Origin: Planctomycetaceae bacterium
GTDB taxonomy: Bacteria > Planctomycetota > Planctomycetia > Pirellulales > PALSA-1355
DNA length: 33,392 nt
Assembly: GCA_003153375.1 (NCBI GenBank)
Contig: PLYM01000225.1
Coordinates: forward strand, 1-33,392
Reading direction: 5' to 3'
A program made the position numbers and the translations under genes. The notes beneath the pieces were generated by a model. It had not been told where the DNA came from. It saw only the letters and a program-made list of their open reading frames with translations, and searched no databases. Positions 900 through 33,392 of the stretch are shown in pieces. Every line of letters starts with the position of its first letter. The first letter of the stretch is position 1.

Positions 900-916
900 G
901 AACAGGCTGGAGGCTG

Positions 917-965
917 GAGGCAGGAGGAAAGACAACTTGTTCTCGTCCCTCCGGCCTCCTGCCTC
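917..965. terminator. G-rich inverted repeat between convergent genes, possible bidirectional terminator
   Basis: GAGGCAGGAGG (917-927) is matched exactly by CCTCCTGCCTC (955-965), an 11-bp stem with a 27-nt loop. The left arm is preceded by a related copy, GGCTGGAGGCTGGAGG, from 905. It sits in the 72-bp gap between two genes ending at 899 and 972. There is no U-tract, so a factor-independent terminator role is uncertain. Confidence 0.5.
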
Positions 966-26531: not shown

Positions 26532-28619
26532 TCAGCGATTCTGCTCGGAAGTCGACCTGACCAGAGCCCGCCATTGGGCCACGGACTCCTCCTTGCCAAA
26601 CACCGGCTCCTGGCAGGCGAAGTGTTCGCAGACGAACACGGTGGGTTCTGCGCTACCGACGTCTTTGCCGGCGAACAGTAGAGCCAAGGCCTTCGACTCC
26701 TCGGCTATCCGATCGGCTCGGCGGCATGCCAGCAGCTTGTTGGGCACGAAACGATGCCGCAGATCGGCCAACGCAGCAGCTGTCTCGGCCTGCCGCACAT
26801 CGCCCACGACCACGATCTCGGGCGTCGGCCCCAGAAAGAAATCCAGCGCCAGCAGCATTTGGCCGGTGCCGCGTGGTGCCTGCTGCATCAGCGCCACGGC
26901 TGCCCGTAGAGTGCTTTCGGCCGTGCTCAGATAATCGTCTCGGCCCGTCAGCTTTCCCAATCGCAACAGCACCATCGCGGCCATCGAGTTGCCGCTGGGC
27001 ACGGCGTTGTCGTACAGATCCTTGGGCCGCGTGATCAGCGTCTCGTGGTCGCTGGCGGTGAAAAAGAATCCGCCCAGGGCAGGGTCGTGGAACAATTCGA
27101 GCATTTGATCGGTCAATTCGGTCGCCGCATCAATCCAGCGCTCGTCGAAATCGGCTTCGTAGAGGCTGACCAAGGCGTTAGCCAGACACGAATAGTCGTC
27201 GAGATAGGCGGCCAGCTTGGCCTTGCCTTGTCGCCACGAGTGCAGCAGCCGGCCATCGGCTTGCATCTGCCCCAGGATAAAATCAGCGGCCTCCGCGGCG
27301 GCGGCCAGATAGCGCGGCTCGTCGAGCACGCCGGCGGCCTGGGCCAGGGCGTCGATCATCAATCCGTTCCAGGCCACCAGCACCTTATCGTCGAGCGCCG
27401 GATGCACGCGTCGTTCGCGCTCGGCAAGCAACTTGGCCCGACCGTCGCCCAATTCGCGCGCCAGCTCGCCGGTGTCGCGCCCCAACACCTGGGCGCACTG
27501 GGCCAGGGTTTTAGGACGATTCAGAATGCTCTGCCCATGCTCGAAATTGCCCTCGGGCGTGACGTCGTACACATAGCTGAACGTACGTGCCGCCGCCGCG
27601 CCCAGAATCGCTTCGATTTCCCCGGGAGTCCAGACGAAGAACTTGCCCTCTTCCCCCTCGCTGTCGGCGTCCTGCGTGCTATAGAACCCGCCGGCGGGGT
27701 CCGTCATTTCGCGCAGCACATAGTCGCAAATTTCGCGCGCCACGTGGGCGTGTTCGGCATCGCCCGTGATGCAATAGGCATCCAGATAACAAGGAACCAA
27801 CAGCGCGTTGTCGTAGAGCATCTTCTCGAAGTGCGGCACGAGCCACCGCTCGTCGACCGAATAGCGATGAAAGCCTCCGCCAAGCTGATCGTAAATGCCG
27901 CCGGCCGCCATGCGGTCGAGCGTCATCGTCAGCATGTGCAACAGGTCGTCGCCGCCGCTTCGGTGCCAACGGTGCGCGAGCAATCGCAGGTCCATCGGAT
28001 GCGGAAACTTCGGAGCCTCGCCAAAACCGCCGTAGGTCCGATCAAACGATCGCGAGAGCGCGGAGGCCGCATGATCCAGCAGGCCCGACTGCAATTCGCC
28101 GTGCTCCAATTGCGGCGCGGCGATCTGCTCCATGTGTTCGGTGAGCGATTCGGCCTGATCGAGCGCCTGCTGCCGGCGATTCTTCCAGGCGTCGGCGATG
28201 GCCGCCAAGACCTGGTCGAAGCCCGGCATGCCGCCGCGCGCGGTCGGAGGCCAATAGGTGCCCCCATAGAACGGTTTCAGATCGGTCGTCAGGAAGACCG
28301 ACATCGGCCAACCGCCGCGCCCGGTCATCAACTGCACCGCGTTCATGTAGATCTGATCCAGATCGGGCCGCTCCTCGCGGTCGACCTTGATCGCAATGAA
28401 ACCCTCGTTGAGCAGCCCGGCAATCCGTTCATCCTCAAAACTCTCGTGCTCCATCACGTGACACCAGTGACAAGCCGAGTAGCCAATCGAAAGAAAGATC
28501 GGCTTATCCTGACTGCGCGCCAGCCCCAGTGCCTCCTCCCCCCACGGATACCAGGCCACCGGATTCCCGGCATGGCCCAGCAAGTAGGGACTGGTCTCGT
28601 TGGCAAGGCGGTTGGACAT
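26532..28619 (-). CDS. DUF255 thioredoxin-domain protein (YyaL/SPATA20 family)
   Basis: 695 residues, full length for this family. The N-terminal thioredoxin-like domain begins [25 protein letters not shown] and carries the CxxC site Cys50-His-Trp-Cys53 in [37 protein letters not shown], also strongly conserved, follows. The rest is a six-hairpin alpha/alpha-toroid with glycosidase-like motifs ([32 protein letters not shown]). The family is widespread, and its function is still unclear despite annotation as a cellobiose epimerase or thioredoxin relative. No signal peptide is seen. The ATG at 28619 lacks a ribosome-binding site: the bases before it are CCCCTTCCTC, the end of a pyrimidine-rich repeat. 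Confidence 0.93.
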
Positions 28620-28625
28620 GAGGAA

Positions 28626-28718
28626 GGGGTTAGGGATTGGGGTTCAGGGATTGGGGTTTAGGGACTAACGGGCGTGAATAGCCTTTTCCCTAATCCCTAA
28701 CCCCCATCCCCTAACCCC
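28626..28718. repeat. Telomere-like G-tract/C-tract inverted array
   Basis: On the + strand, G-runs at 28626-28629, 28633-28635, 28639-28642, 28647-28649, 28653-28656, 28661-28663 and 28670-28672 are spaced by 3-4 bases, giving GGGGTTAGGGATTGGGG and similar. C-runs at 28688-28690, 28695-28697, 28701-28705, 28708-28711 and 28715-28718 form the mirror array (CCCTAATCCCTAACCCCC). The two halves can pair as a long imperfect hairpin, and each fits a G-quadruplex pattern on one strand. The array fills the gap between panB and the DUF255 gene, both read leftward. Confidence 0.85.
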
Positions 28719-29518
28719 TACTTAAACGTTTGTTCCGGAGTGGGAAATTTGCTGCTGCGGACGTCGTCGCGGAAGCGGGTGACGGCGTCCGTGATGGTGT
28801 GCTGCAGATCGGCGTAAGCTTTGACGAAGCGCGGGACGTAGCCACTGGTCAGGCCGAGCAGATCGTTCGTGACCAGGATCTGTCCGTCGCACCCGCCGCC
28901 GGCGCCGATGCCGATGGTCGGTATTTGCAACTGGGCCGTGATCTTCGCAGCCAAGGGAGCCGGTATGCACTCGAGCACGACGGCAAACGCGCCGGCCTGC
29001 TCGGCGGCCGCGGCATCGGCCAGCAACTTGTCCTCATCGCGCTGCACCTTGTAGCCGCCCAGTTGGTGCACGCTTTGGGGCCGCAGCCCGCAATGCGCCA
29101 TCACCGGAATGCCTGCCGACACGAGCCCGGCGATGACCTCGGCCTGATCGGTGCCCCCTTCCAGCTTCACGGCCTGGCAGCGGGTTTCCTTGAGGATGCG
29201 GCCGGCGTTGTCGATGGCCTTCCAGACGCCCAAGTGAAAACTCGGAAAGGGCATGTCGACCACGACCAGGGCATGGTGTACCGCGCGACCGACCATCTCG
29301 GCGTGATAAATCATCTCGTCCAGCGTCACCGGCAGCGTGTTGGGGTGTCCCTGCACGACCATCGACATGCTGTCGCCCACCAAGATGCCCTCGACCCCGG
29401 TGGCATCGAGCAGACCGGCCATCGTGTAATCGTAGGCCGTGAGCATCGTGATCTTCTGGCCCGCGGCTTTCATGGCCCGAAACTTCGGGATCGTCATCTG
29501 ACTCGGTTCATTCGGCAT
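28718..29518 (-). CDS. panB: 3-methyl-2-oxobutanoate hydroxymethyltransferase
   Basis: 266 residues, normal for PanB, which transfers a hydroxymethyl group from methylene-tetrahydrofolate to 2-oxoisovalerate, the first committed step of pantothenate and coenzyme A synthesis. Visible: ITMLTAYDYTMAGLLD, the metal site Asp49 in LVGDSMSMVV and Asp88 in VVVDMPFPSF, substrate residues in AVKLEGG (116-122), the catalytic Glu in VLECIPAPLA, and GIGAGGGCDGQILVTNDLLGL. I chose the ATG at 29518; the frame runs to 29563, and an ATG at 29497 is also possible. No other pantothenate gene is nearby. Its stop codon (TAG, 28718-28720) touches the G/C-tract repeat. Confidence 0.95.
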   Translation of the reverse strand: MPNEPSQMTIPKFRAMKAAGQKITMLTAYDYTMAGLLDATGVEGILVGDSMSMVVQGHPNTLPVTLDEMIYHAEMVGRAVHHALVVVDMPFPSFHLGVWKAIDNAGRILKETRCQAVKLEGGTDQAEVIAGLVSAGIPVMAHCGLRPQSVHQLGGYKVQRDEDKLLADAAAAEQAGAFAVVLECIPAPLAAKITAQLQIPTIGIGAGGGCDGQILVTNDLLGLTSGYVPRFVKAYADLQHTITDAVTRFRDDVRSSKFPTPEQTFK

Positions 29519-29805
29519 CGGAGAAGGCGCCCTCGGTCGAATCGAAAAAAAGTCGCACGCCAAGCGGCATTGTTACCCTCAAGGCTCCGCGAGGCAACTT
29601 GAGCCCGCCGGCAGCAAAGGAGGCAACGGCTCACGAAAAATGCCTTGTCCCGGCCCATTTCCCGGCATCCGGCCAGGGGTTTGCGGGCCAGCACTCCATT
29701 TCCCTCAGCCCGTCGACAAGGTATCTTAAACACAGGGAACAGGTTCGGCCACCGCGATCGCTTGTGCCGGTGTGCCCGAATTGGACAAAGGCGGAGGAGC
29801 ACCAC

Positions 29806-31179: not shown

Positions 31180-32364
31180 TTAGCGGGCGTCGCGGTCGAC
31201 CACCACGACGTTGTTGGCCTTGTCGGTCTCTTCGATCGAGTTATCCGTATCGACGGCCACCATCAGCTTGTCGAAGGCCGCGGGCTGATCCGTCGAGACA
31301 CTCACGATCTGCATCGCGGCGAGCGGCAGTCGCAAGGTCACCTGCCGCGATTGGCCAACCGCCATTCCGGCCACGTCAATCGTGGCTTGGGCTCCATCGG
31401 CCACTTTGCCTTCCAGGGCGGCGTACATTCCGACCCGGAAGGGACCGGCCGCCGCGGTGCCTTGGTTGCGGAAGGTCACGCTGTAGGCCGGACCGGCGAC
31501 CAGCGTCGCGGGCTGGACCATGCGGACATCTTCGACCACCAGGTCAGCCATTCCGGTCGCTTGAGCCATGGCCGGGGCCATCACCGGGGCCGGTGCGTCG
31601 GCGAAGCCAGCGTCGCCGCCGCCACCGCCACCGAATCCGCCGCCACCGAAGCCACCGAGCAGGCCGCCCAATCCACCGCCGAGCCCGCCGCCACCGCCTT
31701 GGTTGATCGTGGTGTTGTTGGTCGTGGTGTTGCCATTGTTGTTGCCGGTGTTGCTGGTGTTGCCCACGTTGCCCGTGCCGTTGCCGGTCGAGCTCGTGTT
31801 GCCGTTGCCGTTGCCGTTGGCCGTGCCGCCGGTCGTGGTGCCCGTACCCGTCGTGCCGGTACCTTTCGTCGTACCGGTGCCCGTCGTACCCGTGCCCTTG
31901 GTGCCCGTGCCGGTCGTGGTGGTGGTGTTGCCGTTGGCGTTGCCGGTGTTGCTCGTGTTACCCGTGTTGCCAATGCCGTTGCCGGTTTGGCTCTTGTTGC
32001 CGTTGCCATTCAGGATGCCGCCGTTGCCATTGCTGGCCAGCTGCGTCTGCTTTTGGCTGCCGAGCTGCTTCTTGGACGACGTCTGGCTGAACAGAGACAG
32101 GGGGGTCGAGGCCGTCTTGCTCGATTTTTGGGTGAACTTCTGGGCGAAGCTGCCATTGCTGAGCTTGCTGCTCTGCATCTTGACGCTTTGAATCTTGTTG
32201 TTTTGCATCTTCTGGACAGGTTGACTCATCTGGCGGGGAGCACTGCTACTGTGGGCATGAGAGTGGCTCATTCCGCCCTTGGCAAAAGCCGCCTGGGGGG
32301 CCAACATGCCGAGGACTGCCACAACCGCGAGTTTCTTCTGCAATTGGTTCATGAAAGAGGCCAT
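31180..32364 (-). CDS. Exported Gly/Asn/Thr-rich protein with C-terminal CARDB-like domain
   Basis: 394 residues from the ATG at 32364; ATG 32352 and GTG 32373 are alternatives. A signal peptide (ending PQAAFAKGG) is followed by a Ser/Gln/Lys-rich segment (about 35-110). A long low-complexity region (about 115-260) is built from GNGNT, TGTGT and NTSNTGN units, then a run of Gly. The last 130 residues form a CARDB-like adhesion fold: ADLVVEDVRMVQPATLVAG, TFRNQGTAAAGPFRVGMYA and a final VDTDNSIEETDKANNVVVVD, whose acidic spacing resembles a calcium site. This suggests a surface or extracellular protein. A paralogue lies directly upstream. A strong terminator follows. Confidence 0.85.
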   Translation of the reverse strand: MASFMNQLQKKLAVVAVLGMLAPQAAFAKGGMSHSHAHSSSAPRQMSQPVQKMQNNKIQSVKMQSSKLSNGSFAQKFTQKSSKTASTPLSLFSQTSSKKQLGSQKQTQLASNGNGGILNGNGNKSQTGNGIGNTGNTSNTGNANGNTTTTTGTGTKGTGTTGTGTTKGTGTTGTGTTTGGTANGNGNGNTSSTGNGTGNVGNTSNTGNNNGNTTTNNTTINQGGGGGLGGGLGGLLGGFGGGGFGGGGGGDAGFADAPAPVMAPAMAQATGMADLVVEDVRMVQPATLVAGPAYSVTFRNQGTAAAGPFRVGMYAALEGKVADGAQATIDVAGMAVGQSRQVTLRLPLAAMQIVSVSTDQPAAFDKLMVAVDTDNSIEETDKANNVVVVDRDAR

Positions 32365-32477
32365 CGTACACACTCACTTTCTTTGTTTTGGGAGGCTTTT
32401 TGGACCCGGCGGACATCGCACAGGTCTCGCTCTACCAGTCCAAGCGTGAGCGCCTCCGAAGTGTTACAAACGGGCTC

Positions 32478-32527
32478 AAAAAAAACCGCGGTGCCCGGCC
32501 ACCCCAGGGGGCAACCGAACACCGCGG
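32478..32527 (-). terminator. Intrinsic terminator of the second CARDB-like gene
   Basis: Read leftward: CCGCGGTGTTCGG (32527-32515), a G/C-rich loop, CCGGGCACCGCGG (32498-32486), then eight U (32485-32478). It begins 39 bases after the stop codon at 32566. It matches the terminator at 31100-31149 closely, including the flanking CACGCTAC. Confidence 0.9.
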
Positions 32528-32565
32528 CACGCTACGCATCAGGTTAACAAGACTCGCTTGCCGGG

Positions 32566-33392
32566 CTACCGGGCCTCCAGGGCGTCCCGGTCGACCACCG
32601 CCACGTTGTTGGTCTTGTCGGTCTCTTCGATCGAGTTATCCGTATCGACGGCCACCATCAGCTTGTCGAAAGCCGAGGGCTGGCTGGACGAAACGCTCAC
32701 GATCTGCATCGCCGCAACTGGCAGCCGCAGCGTCACTTGCCGCGATTGACCAGCCGCCAGGCCGGCCACGTCAACCGTGGCTTGGGCTCCGTCGGCCACT
32801 TTGCCTTCCAGGGCGGCGAACAGCCCCACCCGGAAGTGGCCAGCCGCTGCGGTGCCTTGGTTGCGGAGGGTCACGCTGTAGGCCGGGCCTGCAATCAGCG
32901 TCGCGGGCTGGACAGCGTGGATGTCTTCAACCACCAGGTCAGCCGATCCCGTCGCTTGGGCCAAGGCCGGAGCCGGGGGAGTCATGTCGGCCATGGCCGG
33001 GGCCATCATCGGAGCCGGTGCATCAGCGAAGCCGGCGTCGCCGCCGCCACCGCCACCGAATCCGCCGCCACCGAAGCCACCCAGACCGCCACCTAACAGC
33101 CCACCACCGATTCCGCCGCCACCACCACCTTGGTTAACCGTGGTGTTGTTGGTCGTGGTGTTGCCGTTGTTGGTGCCCGTGTTGCTGGTGTTGCCCACGT
33201 TGCCCGTGCCGTTGCCAGTCGAGCTCGTGTTGCCGTTACCGCTAGCGGTGCCACCCGTCGTGGTCCCCGTTCCCGTGCCGGTTGCGGCCGTGCCCGTGCC
33301 CTTGCCACCCGTGGTAGTGTTGCCGTTACCGTTGCCGGTATTGCTCGTGTTACCCGAGTTGCCAATCCCGTTGCCGGTTTGGCTGACGTTGC
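32566..33392 (-). CDS. Second Gly/Asn/Thr-rich CARDB-like protein, 5' end outside the window
   Basis: The frame is open to the window edge, so the signal peptide and start are missing; a GTG at 33198 lies inside the repeat region and is not the start. The visible part has GNGNT/TGTGT/NTSNTG repeats, a Gly run (GGGGGGIGGGLLGGGLGG) and a CARDB-like domain starting SADLVVEDIHAVQPATLIAG and ending VDTDNSIEETDKTNNVAVVD. It is clearly paralogous to the gene at 31180-32364 through both the repeats and the C-terminal domain, and adds a short insert (MMAPAMADMTPPAPALAQ). A role at the cell surface or outside is likely but unproven. Confidence 0.85.
   Translation of the reverse strand, partial: NVSQTGNGIGNSGNTSNTGNGNGNTTTGGKGTGTAATGTGTGTTTGGTASGNGNTSSTGNGTGNVGNTSNTGTNNGNTTTNNTTVNQGGGGGGIGGGLLGGGLGGFGGGGFGGGGGGDAGFADAPAPMMAPAMADMTPPAPALAQATGSADLVVEDIHAVQPATLIAGPAYSVTLRNQGTAAAGHFRVGLFAALEGKVADGAQATVDVAGLAAGQSRQVTLRLPVAAMQIVSVSSSQPSAFDKLMVAVDTDNSIEETDKTNNVAVVDRDALEAR

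Follow-up and report, generated by a model that had tools for sequence, protein, structure and literature searches.

What is the array of G-runs mirrored by C-runs that lies between panB and a DUF255 gene in a planctomycete, and does it serve the genes that it touches or only itself? The window, i.e. the whole stretch of 33,392 nucleotides that was analysed, comes from a Planctomycetaceae bacterium (contig PLYM01000225.1). Its own genome is called G000 below; among the relatives used for comparison, G001 belongs to the same genus and G002 to another genus of the same family.

An array of inverted heptamers between panB and DUF255

The array is real and non-random. On the forward strand, a G-rich arm of six heptamers (28625-28665; GGGGTTA, GGGATTG, GGGTTCA, GGGATTG, GGGTTTA and GGGACTA) is followed by a spacer of about 22 bp without any ORF (28666-28687) and by a C-rich arm (28688-28719; CCCTAAT, CCCTAAC, CCCCATC, CCCTAAC and CCC) that is its reverse complement and comprises four to five heptamers. 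The units are degenerate and the period is 7 bp in both arms. Segments 28625-28656 and 28688-28719 are 84% complementary across 32 nt, so that the ends of the array can form a stem. Furthermore, the fold predicted for this region as RNA reaches -55.8 kcal/mol compared with -37.3 for shuffled sequences (z = -5.0). The motif TTAGGGNTT occurs twice in the window for 0.18 occurrence expected and GGGGTTAGGGATT, with at most two mismatches, five times for 0.24 expected, all of these occurrences being within the array.

Both neighboring genes are on the reverse strand: panB (28718-29563; Pfam PF02548) and a gene encoding a DsbH-type thioredoxin-domain protein (26532-28619; DUF255, Pfam PF03190). In the leftward transcript, the stop codon of panB is made by the G-rich arm of the array itself (TAG of TAGGGG, 28720-28718) and the end of the C-rich arm is 5 nt from the ATG of the DUF255 gene (28619). 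No site resembling an intrinsic terminator, with a T run behind a short GC-rich stem, was detected in 28400-28900, and a search for sigma-70 promoter signals found none. Elsewhere in the window, Pfam identified a PSCyt1/PSCyt2/PSD1 protein, which is indicative of a planctomycete. Near the window end (31180-33198), two adjacent Gly/Asn/Thr-rich proteins have similar C-terminal parts, an apparent duplication.

A sequence-only reading of this locus had proposed a telomere-like array with quadruplex potential that replaces the ribosome-binding site of the DUF255 gene. This interpretation is partly supported. The array is present where it had been placed, its two halves are able to pair, and its five C-runs are found in 28688-28718. 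Among the seven G-runs that had been counted, six are in phase within 28626-28664, but the seventh GGG is out of phase and belongs to the spacer. The G-rich half was said to come after the panB stop; it does abut it, but the stop codon itself lies within the arm. Similar arrays are present across the genome and the lineage, whereas their absence would have counted against that reading. By contrast, the resemblance to telomeres is not supported, the period being 7 and not 6 and the array being located between genes and not at a replicon end. A telomeric repeat was also rejected because other arrays built in this way, in the window and in the genome, use AGGCTGG, AGGATGA or GTGGTTA. Finally, the absence of a Shine-Dalgarno sequence upstream from the DUF255 gene is not due to the array, because no obvious one precedes the array-free orthologue of G001 (GGGCACCCGCCATG) either.

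Heptamer arrays and PF05635 genes

In G000, another pair of inverted arrays (C254:61474-61944) has GGGGTTA/GGGATTG arms like those of the window array and encloses an ORF (C254:61556-61873) whose product belongs to PF05635, 23S_rRNA_IVP (E = 4e-32, and 1e-32 in a second Pfam search). In nine related genomes, the sequences on either side of 30 PF05635 genes were compared, and most of these genes lie within inverted short tandem arrays whose unit is nearly always different. In an independent test, named genomes were searched for related proteins with protein sequence as the only criterion, and the best 80 loci, from more than 20 phyla, were analysed with a detector that is free of any assumption on the unit. 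Inverted period-7 arrays bracket 64 of these 80 genes, compared with none of 278 shifted positions in the same loci (Fisher p about 5e-56). Other controls at the 80 loci gave 0 to 6 hits for other periods (6 for period 8), 9 for a direct arrangement and 1 for a mirror arrangement. By inspection, the 16 unbracketed loci have mostly 8-bp arms, decayed arms or contig ends; inverted arms with a period of 8 and not 7 were found at L260, L268, L270, L276, L308 and L324.

The 64 bracketed loci carry 54 distinct units and represent 18 named phyla; candidate phyla and an archaeon are among their sources. The complementarity of an arm with its own partner (mean 16.6/18) exceeds that between loci (11.4). 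The G-rich arm is on the 5' side at 53 of the 64 loci and the order is reversed at seven of them. The window array has the commoner orientation, its G-rich arm (28625-28665) being 5' of its C-rich arm (28688-28719); its spacer of 22 bp holds no PF05635 ORF and its location is intergenic, not inside a 23S rRNA gene.

An Rfam scan of 20 PF05635 loci found no rRNA match, some of these loci being beside tRNA genes. For instance, the PF05635 genes of L089, L091 and L102 adjoin tRNA genes or lie between them. Two PF05635 genes are only 2.5 kb apart in G007 (C70:34908-37733; L085 and L076), with units GTGGGGA/GTGGGGT and GTGGACC. Another planctomycete gene (L296, JACRIP010000419.1) has unusually long arms, each of more than 220 bp, with GGTGGAC as unit.

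Of 39 genomes from the order, 28 have PF05635. A preliminary scan of 39 relatives with a single unit (GGGNTTNGGG) was a poor measure of the arrays, its reversed control being identical to the pattern, and the unit-free detector was used instead. The densities given below rest on sampled sequence and not on whole genomes, and this detector overlooks arms that have decayed and may produce false calls in GC-rich sequence. In G000, 10 inverted heptamer pairs were found in the 513 kb sampled, which corresponds to an estimated 130 pairs in the whole genome (63-240, 95% range). They form four unit groups (GGGGTTA, GGAGGCT, AGGATGA and GTGGTTA). Other PF05635-bearing planctomycete genomes have 11 pairs in 715 kb, which gives 21 pairs in 1.23 Mb with G000. 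PF05635-free planctomycete genomes showed no convincing pair in 1,017 kb, the detector making only two false calls in GC-rich DNA. The densities differ even with these false calls counted (p = 1.8e-4). Hence, we demonstrate that arrays of this layout are dispersed, that they are present around nearly all PF05635 genes and that, among planctomycetes, they are nearly restricted to genomes bearing this gene. With genomes taken as the unit and phylogeny uncontrolled, the link is weak: pairs occur in 5 of 10 PF05635-bearing genomes and in none of 10 PF05635-free ones (p = 0.03, or 0.14 when the two false calls are included).

In G000, pairs without ORF far outnumber PF05635 genes, two of which were found. 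Therefore, the short form is the common form and the window array is typical. The solo arrays of G037 fit the link with PF05635 less well, since their most frequent unit (GGGGTTA type) differs from the unit that flanks the PF05635 genes examined.

Carriage by phages was rejected since none of 50,697 phage records matches the four-helix-bundle PF05635 protein. This protein is encoded by 41 plasmids, mostly cyanobacterial. For instance, plasmid pANA02 of Anabaena sp. 90 (L330, 42789-46133) carries a PF05635 element between cas6 and cas4 in a type I-D CRISPR operon. The very long 5' array of this element counts some 40 units (GGTGACA/GGGAACA) or more. The proximity of IVP genes to cas genes was noticed earlier (PMC3936711). 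The tree of PF05635 proteins requires 38 changes of phylum for a minimum of 21; clustering by phylum is present and, with so few columns in the alignment, the tree does not prove transfer.

Dispersal, turnover and origin of the arrays

The window array is probably an ORF-less copy, either non-autonomous or internally deleted, of a dispersed selfish element related to the intervening sequences (IVSs) of 23S rRNA genes. Such an element would end on both sides in arrays of about 4-6 degenerate units of 7 bp, inverted relative to each other, and its full form would carry a single gene, PF05635, between them. In G000, the junction between arm and spacer (AGGATGAAAACG) occurs 26 times and its reversed control never. 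Therefore, the copies of this genome share sequence beyond the repeat unit, as propagated copies should. Furthermore, we demonstrate one pair of filled and empty sites: at the copy L337:1653-1786, 146 bp separate the flank matches in G000 but only 24 bp in G002. The same flanks are 129 bp apart in G001. This is the only clear empty site, and the 24-bp state of G002 may result from a precise deletion instead of representing a site that was never filled. The window contains a second inverted pair, located between convergent genes, with arms at 904-927 (forward strand; unit AGGCTGG) and 948-965 (forward strand; CCTCCGGCCTCCTGCCTC). In the three relatives compared, its flanks are about 1 kb apart, hence this site is not comparable.

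Our data also demonstrate that units are replaced jointly in both arms at orthologous sites. For instance, orthologous PF05635 loci of one genus have GGGGTCA/GGGGTCG units in G011 versus GGGATTC in G028; since they differ in both arms, the unit has changed in the two arms together. The same joint replacement distinguishes the panB junction of G000 from that of G002. In addition, the number of 3' units varies between PF05635 orthologues of Nostoc plasmids. What is constant in this class is the architecture, short tandem arrays inverted with a period of 7 bp, while their sequence can change freely.

These observations have to be weighed against an origin in place, without any mobility, by replication slippage and by template switching at hairpins, the PF05635 genes having been captured by such palindromes. 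The almost free variation of units among loci, the joint change of both arms and the variation of copy number between near relatives such as the Nostoc plasmids would all be expected from such a process. The elements encode no transposase, recombinase or reverse transcriptase, which also counts against a mobile element. However, an origin in place would account poorly for the bracketing of nearly every PF05635 gene sampled, for a single arm-spacer junction in 26 copies of G000, for the filled and empty states of one site, and for the lack of convincing pairs in PF05635-free relatives. We therefore regard it as unlikely.

A selfish element of this kind would persist as a hairpin, in RNA like the 23S rRNA IVSs that are processed by RNase III and perhaps also in single-stranded DNA. 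The pentameric four-helix-bundle protein would act in trans on the stem or on its ends; a protein that reads a stem by its shape would tolerate any unit sequence, which agrees with the variability of the units. Re-insertion would depend on host or third-party enzymes. Slippage in steps of 7 nt, together with template switching by which one arm of the hairpin is copied from the other, could maintain complementarity and period while the sequence drifts.

An alternative with a very low probability is that the array is a regulatory switch in cis, based on competition between a G-quadruplex and an RNA hairpin, that governs either termination downstream from panB or the translation of DUF255. Both arms fit the G3 quadruplex pattern, the predicted hairpin is strong, the array abuts the panB stop as well as the DUF255 start, and the G-rich heptamer repeats of Xanthomonas and Nostoc have been described as quadruplex-forming (PMC4692102). 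However, the quadruplex potential noticed in the sequence-only reading is not kept in relatives: the junction of G002 has the same flush layout with units GTGGTCA/GTGGCCA, hence without GGG, and that of G001 has no heptamer array but a different palindrome. Gene order at the panB junction is different in G003. Moreover, a G3 quadruplex motif is present in an arm at only 10 of the 64 bracketed loci and lacking at the other 54, and the quadruplex was thus rejected as a conserved feature. Arrays are also found between convergent genes (904-965) and beside unrelated genes. At the panB-DUF255 junction, the array is most probably intergenic baggage that is tolerated, and its influence on the expression of DUF255, if any, would be secondary.

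Least probable of all, by a small difference, is that a known transposase, such as a Y1 (RAYT-type) enzyme of family PF01797, moves the arrays as REP/BIME palindromes or MITEs: short dispersed palindromes are typical RAYT substrates and PF01797 genes are present in G000 and in the 10 relatives tested out of 10, but they are equally present in PF05635-free, array-poor genomes (10 in G003, 6 in G024 and 4 in G004), the PF01797 copy C185:851-1189 of G000 has no bracketing pair but only one unpaired array about 280 bp away, and the copies lack the conserved terminal sequences that a sequence-specific transposase would require. Since the presence of PF01797 is independent of the arrays, this transposase was rejected as their partner.

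Proposed selfish hairpin elements compared with known systems

Our search, which covered open papers, found no earlier report of a link between heptamer arrays and PF05635. What appears to be new is this link between arrays and IVP and the status of the window array as an ORF-less relative of an IVS-like selfish element; the class may deserve a category of its own. The S23/IVP family of four-helix bundles has solved structures (2GSC, for the S23 protein XCC0516, and 2RLD, relatives of the PF05635 protein with five chains each in the PDB) and, to our knowledge, no known function. Likewise, we know of no previous explanation for heptameric repeats in intergenic DNA of bacteria. The link gives each of them a testable context, i.e. 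a protein for the repeats and, for the protein, a hairpin that it almost always occupies. We consider it an even bet that these elements form a widespread selfish class, aided by the S23/IVP pentamer, whose identity is a geometry (7-bp periodicity and inversion), which is the source of many heptamer repeats and of which 23S rRNA IVSs are the branch inserted in rRNA genes. If so, the GGGAATC repeats of Xanthomonas and the GGGGATT repeats of Nostoc may be remnants of one class of elements, and 23S rRNA genes would be only its best-noticed insertion site.

The closest known system is the 23S rRNA IVS. The IVS of Coxiella burnetii has been described as a selfish element that is scattered and was acquired horizontally; complementary ends flank its S23p ORF and its RNA is cut out by RNase III (PMC4990558). 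The S23-family protein of Xanthomonas has been described as a homopentamer of four-helix bundles (PMC4990558). This IVS resembles the elements described here in having one small PF05635 ORF between complementary ends that form a stem; its ends have been presented as a 28-bp stem, in a passage that does not mention heptamers (PMC4990558). Unlike IVSs, the present elements are located in intergenic DNA, in operons, on plasmids and beside tRNA genes, their ends are heptamer arrays of variable sequence and many copies have no ORF.

The G-rich heptamers of Xanthomonas and Nostoc (GGGAATC and GGGGA(C/T)T, with 70 inverted pairs in one Xanthomonas genome and 75 in another) are also degenerate, intergenic and arranged in inverted pairs, but they have been treated as quadruplex-forming simple repeats and not tied to mobile elements (PMC4692102). 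That study searched for these G-rich units only (PMC4692102), whereas here the unit was left free and the arrays are linked to PF05635. The TAACTGA repeats of Beggiatoaceae are intergenic heptamers as well, patchy across phyla and perhaps horizontally transferred; unlike the present arrays, they have a fixed unit, nearly all are direct sets with a single inverted repeat, and they were proposed to be translational signals (PMC4679880).

The PF05635 protein shares a related four-helix-bundle fold with the bAvd proteins of diversity-generating retroelements, the match to their family (PF22296) being weak (E = 1e-5). bAvd works with a reverse transcriptase and with template and variable repeats, none of which was noticed beside the elements read here. 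Like MITEs and REP/BIME sequences, the ORF-less copies are palindromes of small size, dispersed and non-coding, which probably rely on a protein supplied in trans. However, MITEs and REP/BIME sequences conserve their terminal sequence within a family, whereas the present elements conserve period and inversion instead. Recognition through these two properties, and not through a terminal sequence, would set such an element apart from most mobile elements.
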